Shown here one piece after another: positions 1,953 through 11,601 of a DNA stretch of 36,886 nt. The notes beneath the pieces are model-generated. The model did not search any database, was not told the DNA's origin, and saw nothing but the letters and a program-made list of their open reading frames with translations. The position numbers were made by a program, and so were the translations under genes. The stretch is from Holophagaceae bacterium. GTDB lineage: Bacteria > Acidobacteriota > Holophagae > Holophagales > Holophagaceae. The DNA lies in the NCBI GenBank assembly GCA_017859995.1, contig JAFJUR010000006.1, positions 1-36,886 on the forward strand, read 5' to 3'. The first letter of the stretch is position 1. Every line of letters starts with the position of its first letter.

Positions 1953-3206
1953 TTATTTCGGCAGCTCAGCCAGACGCCGCTCAAGCCATCGCCGTTCCGG
2001 TTCTTGCCGGGCCAGGCGCAGGGCCTGCTGGTAGGCCTGCCGGGCCTCGCCGGTTCTCTCCAAGCGGCGGAGGAAGTCAGCGCGCACCGAGTGGGCCAGG
2101 TGGTAGCCCTCCAGGTCGCCACCTCGGAGGATGGCCTCGACGAGGTCCAGGCCGGCCTGGGGGCCATCCCGCTTGGCCACCGCCACTGCCCGGTTGAGCG
2201 CCACCACGGGCGATGGTGCGATCCGCTCCAGCAGGCTGTACAGGCCGACCAGCTGGGACCAGTCGGTGGCCGCCTCCGCCGGGGCATCGGCATGAACCGC
2301 CGCGATCGCCGCCTGCAGCGTGTAGGGACCCAGTCGGTGCGACATCATCGCCTTGTCCAGCCACGCCTTGCCTTCCACCATCAGGGCGCGATCCCAACGC
2401 GAACGGTCCTGGTCCGCCAATAGGATCAGCTCCCCCTCCGGCGAGGTGCGCGCCGCGCGACGCGATTCGTGCAGCAGCATCAGGGCGAGGAGCCCCATGG
2501 CTTCAGGCTCCGGCAACAGCTCGTTGAGCAGGCGCCCCAGCCGGATCGCTTCGCCTGAAAGATCAGACCGCGTCAGCGCCGCGCCCGAGGAGGCGGAGTA
2601 GCCTTCGTTGAATACCAGGTAGATCACCCGCAGCACGGCGTCCAACCGGTCGGGCAGCTCGGCGCGGCCTGGCACTTCGTAGGGAATGCGGGCGTCGCGG
2701 ATTTTCGCCTTGGCGCGGACGATGCGCTGGGCAAGCGTCGCGGGGGCGGTGAGGAAGGCGCTCGCGATTTCCTCCGTCGTCAGGCCGCAGACCTCGCGGA
2801 GGGTCAGGGCGATGGAGGCGTCACGGGGGAGCGCCGGATGGCAGCAGGTGAAGATGAGCCGGAGGCGGTCGTCCTCCACGGTCGCCTCGTCCAGATCCAG
2901 GATGCCTGAGACGGAATCGTCGGAGGGCTCGGCGAGGGATTCCAGCGGCGTGCTGAACCTGGCGCGCTGTCGCAGGCGATCAATGGCCTTGAACCGGCCG
3001 GTGGAGACGAGCCATGCACGGGGATGGTCCGGCAGGCCCTGCCTCGGCCAGATCTCGAGCGCCGCGGCAAACGCGTCATTCAAACCGTCCTCGGCCAGGT
3101 CGAAATCACCGAGCAGGCGAATCAGGGTGGCGAGGATCCGCCGCGACTCGGTGCGGAAGAGCGCATCCAGCAATTCCGGAATGCCCTCAGAGGGCATCGC
3201 GGCCAT
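1953..3206 (-). CDS. ECF RNA polymerase sigma factor, ECF42-like with long C-terminal extension
   Basis: 417 aa; [87 protein letters not shown]-terminal TPR-like extension. Confidence 0.92.
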
Positions 3207-4380: not shown

Positions 4381-5697
4381 TCATTGCCGAGGCAGGCCCA
4401 GGGTGGCCTTGGCTCCCTGGCGGTCGGCGCGGTTCGCGAGGGTGAGCGTTCCACCATGGGCCTCGGCGATCTGGCGGCTCAGCGCCAGGCCGATGCCAGA
4501 CCCGTCCGGTTTCGTGGTGAAGAAGGGCACAAACAGGTTGGCCGGGTTTGCCAGACCCGGTCCCTCGTCCAGCACCTCGACCTCCAGCCAGGAAGGATGA
4601 GCCTGCCAGCGGAGGGTGACCGCCCCGCCAGTTTGCTGTGCGGCCTCCACCGCATTGCGAAGCAGGTTGATGAGCACCTGATCCAGCTGGTCGCCATCGG
4701 CCACGAGGGTCAGATCCGGACCGGGCTCCAGGCGCACCGGCTGACGGTTCTCCAGCTCCACCGCTCGCCGGATCCAGGGGCCGACTTCCAGGGGTCGCCG
4801 CTGGGGAGGTGGCAGCTTCGCCAGCTTGGCGTAGGCGTCCAGGAAGCGCTTCAGCGCCTCGCTCCGGCCAGCGATGATGCCGAGGCCCAGGACCAGGTCC
4901 TCCTTCAGGTCCGCAGGGGGAGGTTCCTGGTGGAGCAGGGTGCCGAGGCTTCCGGCCAGGCTATGGATGGGCGCCAGTGAATTGTTGATCTCGTGGCTGA
5001 GCACTCGGATGATGCGCTGCCAGGCTTGGCGCTCCTCCTCGCGGAGGGGCCGCGTCAGATCAGAGAGCACCAGCAGGCGGTGTGGCTGGCCAGCCTGGCG
5101 GAACAGGCTCCGCCGTACCTCCCAACGGCCCGTGTGGCCAGGGAAGGTCATGGCCGCCGCGCTGTCGGCGGGCCCGGCCAAGGCCTCCTCCAGCCCCAGC
5201 GTCCCGGCGGATTCGCCCAGGGCGCGCTCCCTGGGCCGGGCGAGGAAAGCCTCTCCGGCCCGGTTCAGGAGACAGAGGCGGCCCCCTGCATCGAAGGCAA
5301 ACAGGGCCACGTCCATCTCGGCCATGACGGTCCGAAGCAGGGCCGAGGCGTCACGGGCGCCGAGGCGCTGCTGCTGGAACTGCTCGGCCAGATTGTTCAG
5401 TTCGACCATGGCCTGGTGGAGGGCATCCCCTCCCCCGGTGTCGCGGGCCCGGAAGGAATAGTCCCCTTCGCGCAGTGCCGCGAGCAGGTTGGCGAGGGTC
5501 TGCCAGGGGCGAAGGGCCCGCTCCTGCAGCCGGGCAGACATCCGCCACCAGACCGCAGCCGCGGTCGCGGCCAGGGCGGCCCGGAGGGGCCAGGGCCACG
5601 GGGCGACGGCAAGAAGGCCGCCGGCGAGGAGGAGGGCCGGGCCGCCTGCCATCAGCGAGAGCCCCTGGAGCTGGCGGTCGTGGGCAAGCGGCTTCAT
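4381..5697 (-). CDS. Sensor histidine kinase (NtrY-like, PAS + HisKA + HATPase)
   Basis: 438 aa; H-box RIIRVLSHEINNSLAPIHSLAGSL, N-box QVLINLLRNAVEAA, G-boxes VEVLDEGPGL and GSGIGLALSRQIAEAHGG; overlaps RR by 4 bp. Confidence 0.92.
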   Translation of the reverse strand: MKPLAHDRQLQGLSLMAGGPALLLAGGLLAVAPWPWPLRAALAATAAAVWWRMSARLQERALRPWQTLANLLAALREGDYSFRARDTGGGDALHQAMVELNNLAEQFQQQRLGARDASALLRTVMAEMDVALFAFDAGGRLCLLNRAGEAFLARPRERALGESAGTLGLEEALAGPADSAAAMTFPGHTGRWEVRRSLFRQAGQPHRLLVLSDLTRPLREEERQAWQRIIRVLSHEINNSLAPIHSLAGSLGTLLHQEPPPADLKEDLVLGLGIIAGRSEALKRFLDAYAKLAKLPPPQRRPLEVGPWIRRAVELENRQPVRLEPGPDLTLVADGDQLDQVLINLLRNAVEAAQQTGGAVTLRWQAHPSWLEVEVLDEGPGLANPANLFVPFFTTKPDGSGIGLALSRQIAEAHGGTLTLANRADRQGAKATLGLPRQ

Positions 5698-7046
5698 CCG
5701 CTGATCCCGAGTTTCTGAAGGCGGCGATACATGGCGCTGCGGCTGAGGCCGAGGGCCTCGGCGGCGGCCGAGGCCGTGCCAAAGCGGGCGAGGGCCTTGC
5801 GGACCAGGAGACCTTCCATGTCCTCGAGGCTCAGGTCTCCGGTGTCCAGGGATGCCTGCGGCCTGTCGAGCATGAGGTCGGAGGGACGGATGTGGTCGGA
5901 GGATCCCAGCAGGACCGCGCGTTCCATGGCGTGGTCGAGTTCCCGGACATTGCCCGGCCAGCGATGCTGCTCCAGAGCGCGCAGGGCGGCCTCGTCGAGG
6001 CGACGCGGGGGTTTCCGGTACCGCTGGGCGTGCCGCGCCAAGAAGGCCGAAGCCAGCGGCCCCACATCCTCCCGCCGCTCACGCAAGGGCGGAAGGTGCA
6101 GTTCGATGGTATTGATCCTGAAACGAAGGTCCTGGCGGAACCGCCCGGCTTGCACTTCCGCGGCAAGGTCGGCATTGGTGGCGGCCAGCAGGCGCACATC
6201 GGTCTTCAGGGTGGTCGAGGATCCCACCCGCTCGAACTCCCCCGTTTCGAGGACGCGCAGCAGGCGGGCCTGGAGGGAGAGGGGGGCGTTGGCGATCTCA
6301 TCGAGGAAGAGGGTTCCTCCATCGGCTAGTTCGAAACGGCCGGCCCGGGGCGATTTCGCATCGGTGAAGGCGCCTTTCACATGGCCGAAGAGTTCGCTTT
6401 CCAGAACGCCTTCAGCCAGGCCTCCCGCGTTCAGGGTGAGGAAAGGCTGTGCGGCCCGGTTCGAGGCGGCGTGCAGCACCCGGGCCGCCAGGGACTTTCC
6501 GGTTCCGTTCTCGCCGGTGATGAGCACGTTGGCATCGCTGGGCGCCACTTTCCGAAGCAGCCCCAGGAACGCCTGCATGGCGGGCGATTCGGCCACCAGG
6601 GGCGGGATGCCATCGCCGCGAAGGAGCGCGTTTTCCGCCTCGAGCCGCTGGTTGCGGCGCAGTGCGGAGGACAGCTCCGCCTGAACCCTGAGTGTCGCCA
6701 AAAGCCGGGCGTTGTCCCAGGGTTTCTGGACGAAATCCTTTGCGCCCCTCCGCATCGCCTCCACCGCCAATTCGATGCTGCCAAAGCCCGTCATGACCAC
6801 GACCGGGAGCTGGGGATCCAGGGCCTGCACCTGAGCCAGCAGGTCCATGCCCTCCTGGCCGGAAGTGGTATCGGCGCGGAAATTGAGATCCATCAGGAGG
6901 AGGTCGGGCCGCCTCGCGTCAAGCGCGGACAGGGCGGCGGCCGGCGTACCGGCGCGGTCCACCGAATAGCCCTCTCCCTTCAACAGGAGGCGGAGGGCTT
7001 CCTGCACGTCCACATGGTCATCGGCGATGAGGATGCGGGTGGGCAT
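5694..7046 (-). CDS. Sigma-54-dependent response regulator (NtrC family)
   Basis: REC domain ILIADDHVDVQEAL...DLLLMDLNF; AAA+ GENGTGKSLAARVLH, GAFTDAKSPRAGRFELADGGTLFLDEI; Fis-type HTH SAAAEALGLSRSAMYRRLQKLGI. Confidence 0.94.
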   Translation of the reverse strand: MPTRILIADDHVDVQEALRLLLKGEGYSVDRAGTPAAALSALDARRPDLLLMDLNFRADTTSGQEGMDLLAQVQALDPQLPVVVMTGFGSIELAVEAMRRGAKDFVQKPWDNARLLATLRVQAELSSALRRNQRLEAENALLRGDGIPPLVAESPAMQAFLGLLRKVAPSDANVLITGENGTGKSLAARVLHAASNRAAQPFLTLNAGGLAEGVLESELFGHVKGAFTDAKSPRAGRFELADGGTLFLDEIANAPLSLQARLLRVLETGEFERVGSSTTLKTDVRLLAATNADLAAEVQAGRFRQDLRFRINTIELHLPPLRERREDVGPLASAFLARHAQRYRKPPRRLDEAALRALEQHRWPGNVRELDHAMERAVLLGSSDHIRPSDLMLDRPQASLDTGDLSLEDMEGLLVRKALARFGTASAAAEALGLSRSAMYRRLQKLGISG

Positions 7047-7055
7047 GGCAGCAGG

Positions 7056-9437
7056 TTACTCGCTTCGCAGCGCCGTGGCCGGATCCACCCGGGCGGCCCT
7101 GAAGGCCGGAAGGAGACAGGCCGCAAGGGCGGCAAGGATTAGCAGCACCGCGGCACCCAGAGGCCCCAGGAGGCCGGGATCCGGGAGTTCCACGACCCGT
7201 GCCTGGACGCCGCGGGTGAGTGCCAAGCCCAGCAGAAAACCGGCGGCGCCTCCCATCGCGGCGAGTCGGGTTGACTCTTGGAGCACCATGAGGAGGAGGT
7301 CCCGGGTCGTGGCGCCGAGGGCTGAGCGCACGCCGAATTCTCCTCGCCGTTCAGAGGTGTTCGCGGCCACGAGCCCAAACACGCCGCCCCCGGCCAGGAG
7401 GAGGGCCAGCACCGCGAACGCGGAGAAGAAGGCGCGGATCATTCGCTGGGGACCGAGGATGGCATTCATGTTTGCCTCCAATGGCCCGAAGTGGTGAATG
7501 GCCAGGCCCGGGCTGACCTCCCTCAGGACCTCGCGCATAAGCTCCTCGCTGGGACCTGGGCCGTCCGTCCGGATGACGGCGTGGAGCGTGCGGTACCACA
7601 GCGGCCCGCTCTGCGCGTTTGAAAGGTAGAACACCATGGGCGCCGGCTGGCCAGGGCCGAACTCCAGGTAGTCGTCGATCTCGCCCACCACGGTCACGGG
7701 GCCGCCGATGTCTACCTGGCGGCCGATGGGATCCGCGGATCCAAAGCAGGCGCTGGCGAGGCCACGGGTGAGGATGGCCACGCGGGGGTGGGCCGGGTCG
7801 TCCTCTTCGGTGAAATCCCTGCCGCGTCGGAAGCGCATGCCGAGGGCTGGCAGCGAGCCCGGGCCGGCTCCGCGCGCTTGCGGACCCAGCCTCTCGGTGC
7901 TGCCCAGGGCGCTCATGCCCAGGTCGCTCTTGAATCCGGTCATGGGCACGTTGTTGAACAACCCCGCAGCCTTCACCCCCGGAAGTTGCCGCAATCGATC
8001 CAGGAGCTGCTGCTGCAGGGCGTTGAACCTGCCAGGGTCTTGCAGGACGTCACGAGCTGGGCTGATCCGGAAAGACCAGGCCCCTTTGGGCTGGAATCCC
8101 GGATCCTTGGCCAGGAGCAGCCCAATGCCGCCCTGCAGCCAGGCGGCCACGCCGAGGGTGGCCGCCGCGAGCGCAAGCTGGCCGAGCACCAGACCCCGAC
8201 GAAGGTTGCGCTGGCCGCCGAGGAGCCCTCGGCCTTGTTCCCGAGCCGCCTGCCCCAGGTTCGTGGCTGGCTGGCTGGCCAAGGCGCACAGGGCGCCAAG
8301 CAAAGGGCCGAGGATGACAGCGGCAGAGATCGAGGCGGCATCAAGACGGAGACCATCCAGGGGGAGATCCCGCAGGCCCCATTGCATTGCCTGACCGGCC
8401 GGACTCAGGGCGAGGTGCCCGAAGAGCAGGCCCAGGAGGGCGCCGCCGAGACCCAGCAGGGCGCCCTCCGTCAGCACGTGGCGACGCCACTCCAGCGGGG
8501 TGGCCCCCAGCGCGAACCGCACGGTCCACTCCTGCCGGCGGGCGGAGGCCCGGGCCACCAGCAGGGCCGAGGCGTTGAACACGGCCATGGCCAGGAGCAA
8601 CAGCACCGCGAGATCGAGCGCCGCGAGGACCTTGAGACCTGATCCGAGCCAGTCTTCGATGAGGGGGTTGCACCCGTAGCCGTATCTGCCCGCGGTCAGA
8701 TCCGAGGCGTACTCGGGTTGCAGAACCGCCAGCTGGTCGCCGAACCGGGCCATGTGCGCGCGCACTTGAGCGAGGGTGGTGGCGGGGCGAAGGCGGGCGA
8801 ACACCCTCAGGTAGTGGGCGCCGAAGTTCGCCCGCTGAGCTGGCGACACGGCGAGAGGCTTGAAACATTGGGATCCCAGCGGCGTGTGGAAATCCTTGGG
8901 CAGCACGCCCACGACCCGATGCGGCCTCCCATCCAGGTCCAGGAGGCTTCCGAGAACCCCCGGGTTCCCCCCAAAGCGGCGCATCCAGTACCCGTGGCTG
9001 AGGATCAGAACCTCGCTCTGGCCGGGAGTTTCATCAGCGGAGCTAAAGTCCCGGCCCAGGAACGGAACCACCCCCAGCACCTGGAAGAAATTGGCGGTCA
9101 CGCGTTCGAGATGCACGAATTCCGGCGTGTCGCCCGCCACGTTTCCCTGGGTGGGATCTGTGGCGGCCACGCCCTCAAAGACGTCATGCCCGGTCCGGAA
9201 CAGCTCCAGTTCGCCGTAGGAAGGCGTGCCGTGGCGCTCAGGGCGGTCCATCCGACCATTCCAGAGGGCAACCAGCCGATCCGGGTGGGCCACTGGAAGG
9301 CTTCTCAGCAGCAGGCTTCGACGAAGGGCGAGCATCCAGACCAGTCCGCCCAGGCCGATGCCCAGAAGCAGCATCGCGGGAATGGATGTCTTGGGGTCGC
9401 GGATGAGGCTGCGTGCCAGCTGTTTCAATCGGGACAT
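7056..9437 (-). CDS. ABC transporter permease, MacB/FtsX type with duplicated FtsX domains (ADOP-like)
   Basis: 793 aa; MacB periplasmic-core-like segment; two FtsX-like segments (LLLLAMAVFNASALLVARASARRQEWTVRFALGAT and LLLAGGGVFGLVAANTSERRGEFGVRSALGAT). Confidence 0.88.
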   Translation of the reverse strand: MSRLKQLARSLIRDPKTSIPAMLLLGIGLGGLVWMLALRRSLLLRSLPVAHPDRLVALWNGRMDRPERHGTPSYGELELFRTGHDVFEGVAATDPTQGNVAGDTPEFVHLERVTANFFQVLGVVPFLGRDFSSADETPGQSEVLILSHGYWMRRFGGNPGVLGSLLDLDGRPHRVVGVLPKDFHTPLGSQCFKPLAVSPAQRANFGAHYLRVFARLRPATTLAQVRAHMARFGDQLAVLQPEYASDLTAGRYGYGCNPLIEDWLGSGLKVLAALDLAVLLLLAMAVFNASALLVARASARRQEWTVRFALGATPLEWRRHVLTEGALLGLGGALLGLLFGHLALSPAGQAMQWGLRDLPLDGLRLDAASISAAVILGPLLGALCALASQPATNLGQAAREQGRGLLGGQRNLRRGLVLGQLALAAATLGVAAWLQGGIGLLLAKDPGFQPKGAWSFRISPARDVLQDPGRFNALQQQLLDRLRQLPGVKAAGLFNNVPMTGFKSDLGMSALGSTERLGPQARGAGPGSLPALGMRFRRGRDFTEEDDPAHPRVAILTRGLASACFGSADPIGRQVDIGGPVTVVGEIDDYLEFGPGQPAPMVFYLSNAQSGPLWYRTLHAVIRTDGPGPSEELMREVLREVSPGLAIHHFGPLEANMNAILGPQRMIRAFFSAFAVLALLLAGGGVFGLVAANTSERRGEFGVRSALGATTRDLLLMVLQESTRLAAMGGAAGFLLGLALTRGVQARVVELPDPGLLGPLGAAVLLILAALAACLLPAFRAARVDPATALRSE

Positions 9438-9479: not shown

Positions 9480-10178
9480 TTAGATGTCGGCCCGATGGCC
9501 CTCCTCAACCACCCGGCCATCGAAGAGGCGGATGCTGCGATCGGAGGACCGGGCGAAACGCTCATCGTGGGTGACCATGCAGATGGTGGAGCCCCGCCGG
9601 TGGAGGTCCTTCAGCAGGGCCATCACCGACTCGCCGTTGGTCGAGTCGAGATTCCCGGTGGGTTCGTCCGCCAGCAGGATCGCGGGCCGTCCGGCCACCG
9701 CGCGGGCCACGGCCACGCGCTGCTGCTGCCCACCGCTCAATTGGGAAGGCAGGTGGTTGGCCCGGTGGCTCATGCCCACGACCTCGAGGGAATCCAGCGC
9801 CCGCGCCCGCCGCTCGCCTGGAGGCATGCCGCGGTACACCAGCGGCAGTTCCACGTTCTCGAGGATGGTGAGGTCGCCGATGAGGTTGAAGCTCTGGAAA
9901 ATGAAGCCGATCTCCCGGTTGCGGAGCCGCGCGCGCTCCCGGAGATCCAGCTGGCCGACGCCTTTCCCATGGAGGGAGTAGTGGCCCGACGAAGGCGCGT
10001 CCAGCAGCCCGAGGATGGCGAGCAAGGTGGATTTCCCGCATCCGGACGGGCCCGAGATGGAGACGAATTCCCCTTCATGGATGTCGAGCTGGATGTCGGA
10101 CAGGGCGTGGGTCTCCACTTCATCCGTGATGAAGACTTTGCGGATGCCATCGAGACGGATGAGGGGATCGGCGGTCAT
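9480..10178 (-). CDS. ABC transporter ATP-binding protein (LolD/MacB family)
   Basis: MTADPLIRLDGIRKVFITDEVETHALSDIQLDI; Walker A GPSGCGKST, signature LSGGQQQRVAVARA, Walker B ILLADEPT. Confidence 0.94.
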   Translation of the reverse strand: MTADPLIRLDGIRKVFITDEVETHALSDIQLDIHEGEFVSISGPSGCGKSTLLAILGLLDAPSSGHYSLHGKGVGQLDLRERARLRNREIGFIFQSFNLIGDLTILENVELPLVYRGMPPGERRARALDSLEVVGMSHRANHLPSQLSGGQQQRVAVARAVAGRPAILLADEPTGNLDSTNGESVMALLKDLHRRGSTICMVTHDERFARSSDRSIRLFDGRVVEEGHRADI

Positions 10179-10201: not shown

Positions 10202-11446
10202 TCACTTGATCTGAATACGGTCCGAACCGTCCCAGGCTGAGGCATCGGAGAGGATCACCCGGTCGCCCGCCTGCAGGCCCGCCAGAACCTCCAGGGTGGC
10301 GACGGAACCCCGCCCGAAGGCCACCTTCACTCGGGTGGCTTCGGTTCCATCTGCCGACAGCCTGAACAGGCTGGCGCTGCCGTGAGCCTGGGCCTGGACG
10401 GGGCGTCCGACATACAACACGTCCGCGACCCGATCCACCTCCACGATGCCTTCGACGCTGAGGTCGAGGCGTGCGCCTTGGGGAAGGGGGCCGTCGAGGC
10501 TGACATCCACGGTGACTGTTCCGCCCTGGACCGAAGGGTCGATGCGGGTGATTTTTCCGGGCACCAGGCCGCTGCGGGTATCGATGTGGACAGGCTGGCC
10601 CAGCGCCAGGTCCTTGGCCTGGCTCTCGCCGATCTTCAGCTCGGCCTTCAACTGCGTGGGCTGGGCCACCTTCGCGAGGACCGCGCCCGGCTGGAGCTGC
10701 TGGCCCACCTGCACGGGCAGCTGCTGAAGCACGCCGTCCAGCCCTGCGCGGACCTTCAGGCCATCCACCTGGGCGCGCTTGAGCGTGCAAAGGGCCCGGG
10801 CCTGCTCGACCCTGGCCTCGAAGGTGGCCAGCTGGGCCTTGATGGAGTCCGATCCAATCTGAAGCCGGCTCTGTTCGATGACGAAGCGGGTTTCGAGTTC
10901 CTCATCCAGGGTTCTCGCCTTCAGAAGGTCCTGGTGGGAGATGAGCCCTGCTTTCGCCAGGGCCTCGCTCGCCTTCAGGCCCATACCCGCGTTGGACCGG
11001 TTCGCCTTCGCCGAGGCCATTGACGCGCGGACATCCAGCAGCTGGCCCTGCAGGCGGGCCCGGGCCGCCTGCAGATCGGCCTCGGCGGCCTTCAGCTGCC
11101 AGGCCGCGTCGAGGGCGGACTGTTGAAGCTCGGGATTGCTCAGTTCCAGAATGACATCGTCCGAATTCACGGCCGCACCTGGCAGGGCCACGAGGCGCTC
11201 CACGCGCCCGGCGGCGCCGGTGGTGAGCCAGCGCACATGCAGCGGCACGAGGGACCCGTTGCCCCGGATCTGGATGACGAGGGGGCCCCGCTTCACGGCA
11301 TCCACCAGAAGGTTCTGGCGTTCCACCGTCGGGACTGCTGATCTCGACCGGGCCAGCCCCACCCCCAGCAGCAGCACCCCCGCACCGATCCCGATCGCCA
11401 GGGGCAGGTGGCGAGGGCGGGGCGCGGGATTTCGCGGGATGTCCAT
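10202..11446 (-). CDS. Efflux periplasmic adaptor subunit (HlyD/MacA family)
   Basis: N-terminal TM, GNGSLVPLHVRWLTTGAAGRVERLVALPGAAVNSDDVILELSNPEL, coiled coil, VRAGLDGVLQQLPVQVGQQLQPGAVLAKVAQPTQLKAELKI; start at 11446 with upstream GGAG. Confidence 0.88.
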   Translation of the reverse strand: MDIPRNPAPRPRHLPLAIGIGAGVLLLGVGLARSRSAVPTVERQNLLVDAVKRGPLVIQIRGNGSLVPLHVRWLTTGAAGRVERLVALPGAAVNSDDVILELSNPELQQSALDAAWQLKAAEADLQAARARLQGQLLDVRASMASAKANRSNAGMGLKASEALAKAGLISHQDLLKARTLDEELETRFVIEQSRLQIGSDSIKAQLATFEARVEQARALCTLKRAQVDGLKVRAGLDGVLQQLPVQVGQQLQPGAVLAKVAQPTQLKAELKIGESQAKDLALGQPVHIDTRSGLVPGKITRIDPSVQGGTVTVDVSLDGPLPQGARLDLSVEGIVEVDRVADVLYVGRPVQAQAHGSASLFRLSADGTEATRVKVAFGRGSVATLEVLAGLQAGDRVILSDASAWDGSDRIQIK

Positions 11447-11480
11447 CAGGGCTCCGGCAGGGGGATGACCCCCTGTTGAG

Positions 11481-11496
11481 AGCCAAAGCCGTGCCG
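11481..11496 (-). promoter_or_regulatory. Putative sigma-54 (-24/-12) promoter of the efflux/two-component operon
   Basis: Minus strand CGGCACGGCTTTGGCT: GG-N10-GC spacing, matches YTGGCACGN4TTGCW except two positions; about 35 nt before ATG. Confidence 0.7.
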
Positions 11497-11545: not shown

Positions 11546-11586
11546 GGGACCAGGCTGGGTGTCCCGAAACCGGGACAGGGCGTCCC
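11546..11586. promoter_or_regulatory. Candidate NtrC-type upstream activating sequence cluster
   Basis: GGGAC(11546-11550), TGTCCCG(11560-11566)-AAAC-CGGGACA(11571-11577), GTCCC(11582-11586): four half-sites centred ~100 bp upstream of the sigma-54 start. Confidence 0.65.
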
Positions 11587-11601
11587 ACGCATGGCGGCGC
11601 C

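Follow-up and report, generated by a model that had tools for sequence, protein, structure and literature searches.

An array of GGGAC/GTCCC half-sites in front of a predicted exporter operon of a Holophagaceae bacterium is very probably the upstream activator sequence (UAS) of the operon's own NtrC-type regulator, placed at a sigma-54 promoter through which this ADOP/MacB-type exporter operon would be autoregulated. The stretch of DNA analysed (hereafter, the window) has a length of 36,886 nucleotides and is part of a 3.2-Mb draft genome of 258 contigs (contig labelled C110). Operons of this kind, which contain ADOP permeases and carry their own regulator and kinase, are widespread and uncharacterised, and the array provides a sequence-defined candidate switch for them; a reporter placed behind the hlyD promoter could reveal the signal and hence the substrate. 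It also illustrates how the comparison of orthologous promoters can build a strong regulatory prediction on a motif picked out by eye in a single genome. The features of the locus, from the array through the promoter to the end of the operon, are as follows.

11593 to 11597, minus strand: position of the first half-site, decayed to CCGCC (2/5 matches); complete in the relatives G053, G062 and G063 and near-complete in G031
11582 to 11586, minus strand: GGGAC on the coding strand, the second in-register half-site; kept in 5/5 aligned genus promoters and in the family table
11560 to 11577, minus strand: core dyad TGTCCCG-GTTT-CGGGACA, that is, the palindromic GTCCC-N6-GGGAC of half-sites three and four, seen in the sequence and with N6 rigid in relatives
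11546 to 11550, plus strand: leftmost GGGAC of the initial annotation, out of register (N10) and with no counterpart in aligned relatives
11481 to 11496, minus strand: predicted sigma-54 promoter -24/-12 box CGGCACGGCTTTGGCT, with GG at 11495-11494 and GC at 11483-11482; aligned in 5/5 genus promoters, score 0.90
10202 to 11446, minus strand: hlyD/macA-type gene for a periplasmic adaptor, at the head of the operon (Pfam HlyD_D23, HlyD_3)
9480 to 10178, minus strand: ABC ATPase, MacB/LolD/DarD-like, start inferred at about 10178 (Pfam ABC_tran; NCBIfam DarD at 250 bits, below cutoff)
7056 to 9437, minus strand: ADOP/MacB-type FtsX permease (Pfam MacB_PCD, FtsX; NCBIfam TIGR03434 at 569.8 bits, cutoff 622.3)
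5694 to 7046, minus strand: NtrC-family response regulator with receiver, AAA+ domain bearing a GAFTDA loop, and Fis-type HTH (Pfam Response_reg, Sigma54_activat, HTH_8)
4381 to 5697, minus strand: sensor histidine kinase that presumably partners the regulator (Pfam HATPase_c; the gene follows the regulator in relatives)

The product of the operon is likely a tripartite ABC exporter, judging from these domain matches. The regulator has the domain architecture of an NtrC-type bEBP (PF00072, PF00158 and PF02954) and is the sole DNA-binding protein encoded in the conserved operon. In place of GAFTGA it carries GAFTDA, as do its orthologs with few exceptions, and this variant is listed as keeping activator function (PMC4641369). 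The number of ADOP/MacB-type permeases varies, from one in the window operon to about nine side by side in relatives; one ABC ATPase was found per operon in the multi-permease operons of G016, G030, G053, G006 and G031 (L034-L039, L045). Downstream of the operon, on the same strand, lies a gene for an ECF-type sigma factor with a DUF6596 extension (1953-3206).

The four half-sites reported in the initial annotation, including the perfect 7-bp inverted repeat, are all present. Read on the plus strand, they are GGGAC at 11546-11550, TGTCCCG-AAAC-CGGGACA at 11560-11577 and GTCCC at 11582-11586. They occupy non-coding DNA within the 155-bp intergenic stretch between the radC stop (11602, minus strand) and the hlyD ATG (11446-11444, minus strand), 15 bp after the end of radC, which is on the same strand. 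The -24/-12 box at 11496-11481 places the expected start of hlyD transcription near 11470 and the centre of the array near -100, in agreement with the distance of about 100 bp originally proposed. The GG-N10-GC of the box (11495-11482) follows the array by 65 bp, and UASs of sigma-54 promoters typically lie within about 100-150 bp upstream of the -24/-12 box. The -12 element of the window, TTTGGCT, is off consensus. The genome itself encodes rpoN (sigma-54), and a search for a sigma-70 promoter found none. A second perfect inverted repeat, CAGGGGG-TCAT-CCCCCTG, is present on the minus strand at 11458-11475, past the -12 element and before hlyD begins. It coincides with the expected transcription start or follows it closely, and could be a 5′ hairpin or a product of chance.

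Only part of the four-half-site array is conserved. In the promoter comparison, the conserved unit comprises three half-sites (11561-11586, minus strand), which are in register and kept in relatives. The leftmost half-site (11546-11550) is separated from these by N10, and the window has a 12-bp insertion relative to its relatives between array and promoter at its position; since it breaks the register and none of the aligned relatives has it, it is probably a chance product.

Orthologs of the HlyD adaptor occur in only 15 of 77 family genomes, so that presence and absence of the operon can be compared. Of the promoters of the orthologous HlyD-ABC-permease-response regulator-kinase operon, 14 are readable, and every one of these has an in-register array, with the family pattern GTCCC-N6-GGGAC-N4-6-GTCCC-N6-GGGAC, in which one outer half-site is usually decayed. 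In an alignment of five promoters from the genus, the array is followed by a spacer that is A+T-rich in most of them, by the -24/-12 box and by ATGGA; apart from one mismatch in G031, all five have the three half-sites in exact form. The spacing within a dyad (N6) is rigid and that between dyads varies from 4 to 6, so the dyad centres are 20-22 bp apart, or two turns of DNA. The second dyad is nearly complete in G053, G031 and G063 and half decayed in the window; the locus has more than one site in phase, as would allow oligomer loading. Scored against a four-half-site model of 20 positions, G053 reaches 19/20, the genus members and G062-G067 reach 17-18, G056 and G061 score 16 without an exact array, and G070 scores 15. 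Setting aside the other-strand reading of the same site, the array is the top score of the locus in 13 of 14 cases, the exception being G070. The distance from the array to the GG of the box is 52-53 bp in nine promoters and 64-67 bp in five (window included), two classes that differ by slightly over one helical turn. In G031 the array (L034, about 4948-5003) lies within a perfect inverted repeat, CATCAACAAGTGCCATTTCCGGGACG-AGC-CGTCCCGGAAATGGCACTTGTTGATG, whose arms are about 26 bp long.

Going by the translations, different genes precede the array in different genomes: radC (window), an MBL-fold-like gene (G006), one encoding a Gly-rich protein (G016) or a desaturase-like gene (G066, G067 and G070). 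In G031, G053 and G065 no same-strand gene ends close before the array. This variation indicates that the array belongs to the downstream operon. Array and box are thus kept as a pair in 14 orthologous promoters irrespective of the upstream gene, which supports the original proposal of an array at UAS distance for a Fis-type regulator. A natural contrast is provided by G052, in which HlyD is kept (52% identity) but placed after the ABC gene. Within 17.5 kb around this HlyD, a regulator and kinase of this type are absent, and the best regulator match in the genome is 46% identical vs. 66-73% for the family orthologs; before HlyD, neither the array nor a sigma-54 box was found. The array is therefore kept together with its cognate regulator in 14 of 14 readable operons and absent from the regulator-less G052, and two genomes, both fragmented assemblies, can be compared only in part: in G067, which has HlyD and the array, no regulator gene was located, and in G068, which has the regulator, the HlyD promoter is not assembled. 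No readable Holophagaceae operon retains the regulator while having lost the repeat, the combination that the initial annotation had named as contrary to its proposal.

The inverted repeat alone is unremarkable, since the window contains 12 perfect 7-bp inverted repeats with a 4-nt loop vs. 5.3 per shuffle; the hairpin in itself is little evidence, and it is conservation that counts. Likewise, a window scan for TGTCCC-N6-GGGACA with up to two mismatches showed no enrichment (3 found vs. 3.15 expected). The three-half-site pattern GGGAC-N5-GTCCC-N6-GGGAC is rarer: it occurs once in the window and in none of 60 shuffles (expectation 0.0025). Across the whole genome, pattern-based searches returned two exact matches to TGTCCC-N6-GGGACA, one at the array locus and one inside an open reading frame, and the second exact three-half-site match (C57) is likewise within an open reading frame, away from any operon gene. 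The genome-wide search for the palindrome suggested in the initial annotation thus yielded a single-operon target in this genome, and with the other exact palindrome sitting in an open reading frame we rejected a genome-wide regulon. In the 77 family genomes, matches to the dyad plus a -24/-12 box fall mainly at the exporter operon, and the rest resembles the background of the reversed-pattern control. A scan of the same genomes for the exact array gave 15 matches, against 20 for a reversed control pattern. Nine of the 15 are directly upstream of an orthologous HlyD (the G063 array is reversed) and five are background with no operon genes nearby (C57 of the window genome, G034, G063:C296, G068:C101 and G070:1468770). 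The remaining one (L062, G067:C242:1086-1111) stands with a sigma-54 box of its own, TGGCACGAAACGCGCA, before the gene of a stand-alone ADOP-like permease, which the regulator likely controls as well in that genome.

These observations bear on what else the array might be. The initial annotation had already judged a radC terminator hairpin to be the weaker reading, and we consider a hairpin of radC, whether an intrinsic (or Rho-type) terminator or a processing site, very unlikely. The palindrome does lie just past the radC stop, with a 7-bp GC-rich stem and a GTTT loop, and the arrays of several relatives are 5-22 bp past the stop of the upstream gene, but no U-run follows the stem, no terminator is predicted and the fold is no better than that of shuffled sequences (z = 0.38), which together with the lack of an Rfam match also led us to discard an RNA element. 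Moreover, the array persists beside unrelated upstream genes, or with no close same-strand gene at all, and what is conserved is a series of alternating in-register half-sites rather than a single stem. To the idea that the half-sites arose by chance in a G+C-rich intergenic region, or belong to a palindromic repeat element, we assign next to no probability: perfect 7-bp inverted repeats are common in the window, as noted above, but the half-sites of the array stay in register across 14 promoters of different genera in which the surrounding bases have diverged, and the array has no repeats elsewhere in its own genome. In our judgement, this conservation already refutes both versions.

Palindromic GGGAC sites could serve many regulators, and the array might instead be the operator of another DNA-binding protein, such as a repressor or a one-component regulator. 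We regard this as unlikely, given that the conserved operon encodes no DNA-binding protein besides the NtrC-type regulator, that array and regulator are lost together in G052, that the array is followed by a -24/-12 box, and sigma-54 promoters need a bEBP, and that the single target in the genome is what is expected of a local regulator.

For the preferred reading, a UAS bound by the co-encoded regulator, the bEBP paradigm suggests the following sequence of events. The histidine kinase of the operon would phosphorylate the NtrC-type regulator, whose dimers would attach through the Fis-type HTH to the GTCCC-N6-GGGAC dyad and to the half dyad beside it. The window dyad reads as TGT-N12-ACA, within the TGT-N10-12-ACA class of dyad-symmetric sites for Fis-type HTH dimers. 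With dyad centres about 20-22 bp apart (two helical turns), binding would seed assembly of the AAA+ hexamer, which, with the DNA looped, would contact RNA polymerase-sigma54 at the -24/-12 box and open the promoter. The operon would in this way activate itself when its signal is present, a form of positive autoregulation.

The arrangement extends beyond the Holophagaceae. Counting family members, 33 of 78 loci have a -24/-12 box scoring at least 0.87 at 70-10 bp before the HlyD start, compared with 0.6% of control 60-mers. Outside the family, 31 promoters have such a box, and the 150 bp preceding it were scanned for dyads with at most one mismatch: 18 promoters contain GTCC-N6-GGAC (0.8 expected), 12 contain GTCC-N7-GGAC (1.8 expected) and 5 contain GTCC-N8-GGAC (2.3 expected); Lysobacterales HlyD promoters carry TGTCCGATTCCGGAC-type sites. 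Regulator orthologs with 56-64% identity were found in 16 of 18 genomes outside the family, with the recognition helix LGLSR..YRR wherever the match covers it and the GAFTDA loop in nearly all (one ortholog has GAYTDA and one GATTDA). Several Acidobacteriota HlyD homologues outside the family have no strong sigma-54 box or dyad at the cut-offs used, so the arrangement is widespread and not universal.

Between clades, the dyad spacing varies (GTCC-N6, N7 or N8-GGAC) and the recognition helix is nearly constant (L065-L142 for promoters, L155-L169 for regulators), so that no simple code connects helix and site. N8 tends to pair with ALGLSRSA[FMI] and N6 with LGLSR[PGAT], but we did not adopt a rule relating dyad spacing to HTH sequence: the trend is suggestive, with too few independent pairs and some promoters without a clear dyad. 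More speculatively, and with the balance of our judgement somewhat against it, a single exporter-linked NtrC-type regulator, present from Acidobacteriota to Gammaproteobacteria and Phycisphaerae, might use an operon-dedicated two-dyad enhancer whose half-site spacing drifts (N6 for the Lysobacterales, N7 for several further lineages, N8 for the Holophagaceae) while its helix LGLSR..YRR hardly changes. If true, this drift would constitute a natural series for studying how operator spacing is set by Fis-type HTH dimers.

Several known systems resemble parts of this arrangement. One of them is GlrR (QseF) of Escherichia coli, likewise an NtrC-type response regulator acting with sigma-54, whose sites have the consensus TGTC-N10-GACA (PMC8745638). 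The window dyad TGTCCCGAAACCGGGACA fits this consensus exactly, and the GlrR sites upstream of glmY are TGTCGCTAAAAAGAGACA, TGTCGCCAGAAAGCGACA and TGTCGTGATTTACAGACA. In contrast to these, the core here is GTCCC-N6-GGGAC, many relatives have G for the outer A, the half-sites alternate in a tight two-dyad array, and the target is an exporter operon rather than a small RNA. We rejected the window regulator as a GlrR ortholog: its GlrR score of 286 bits is below the cutoff of 763 and is exceeded by those of the NtrC, NtrX, AtoC and ZraR models, and the two recognition helices are different. More generally, TGT-N10-12-ACA is the site form in fifteen EBP groups (PMC6615313), and as with generic UASs of NifA/FhlA-type and other EBPs, the TGT-N12-ACA core lies upstream of a -24/-12 promoter; unlike those, it has extended CCC/GGG arms, and its target operon and regulator group do not appear in the papers found. 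The yGTCA-N6-TGACr sites predicted for DVU2894 / FlrA-like regulators (PMC4641369) share the geometry of short arms around an N6 spacer and the association with sigma-54, but differ in arm sequence and in target, theirs being the flagellar cascade. On the side of the exporter, the HlyD adaptor, DarD/MacB-like ATPase and FtsX/MacB permease are common to the MacAB / DarCD-type exporters and ADOP permeases (TIGR03434), whereas here the matches to named families all fall below curated cutoffs, relatives have up to about nine permeases and the operon has a dedicated NtrC-type two-component system. In the open-licence literature, we found no paper on sigma-54 efflux regulation in Geothrix, on ADOP regulation or on MacB with sigma-54 in Acidobacteria. 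Overall, with a dyad of EBP type and a regulator that is not a GlrR ortholog and has a different helix, the array is a new example of a well-known type of bacterial switch and not a new mechanism.
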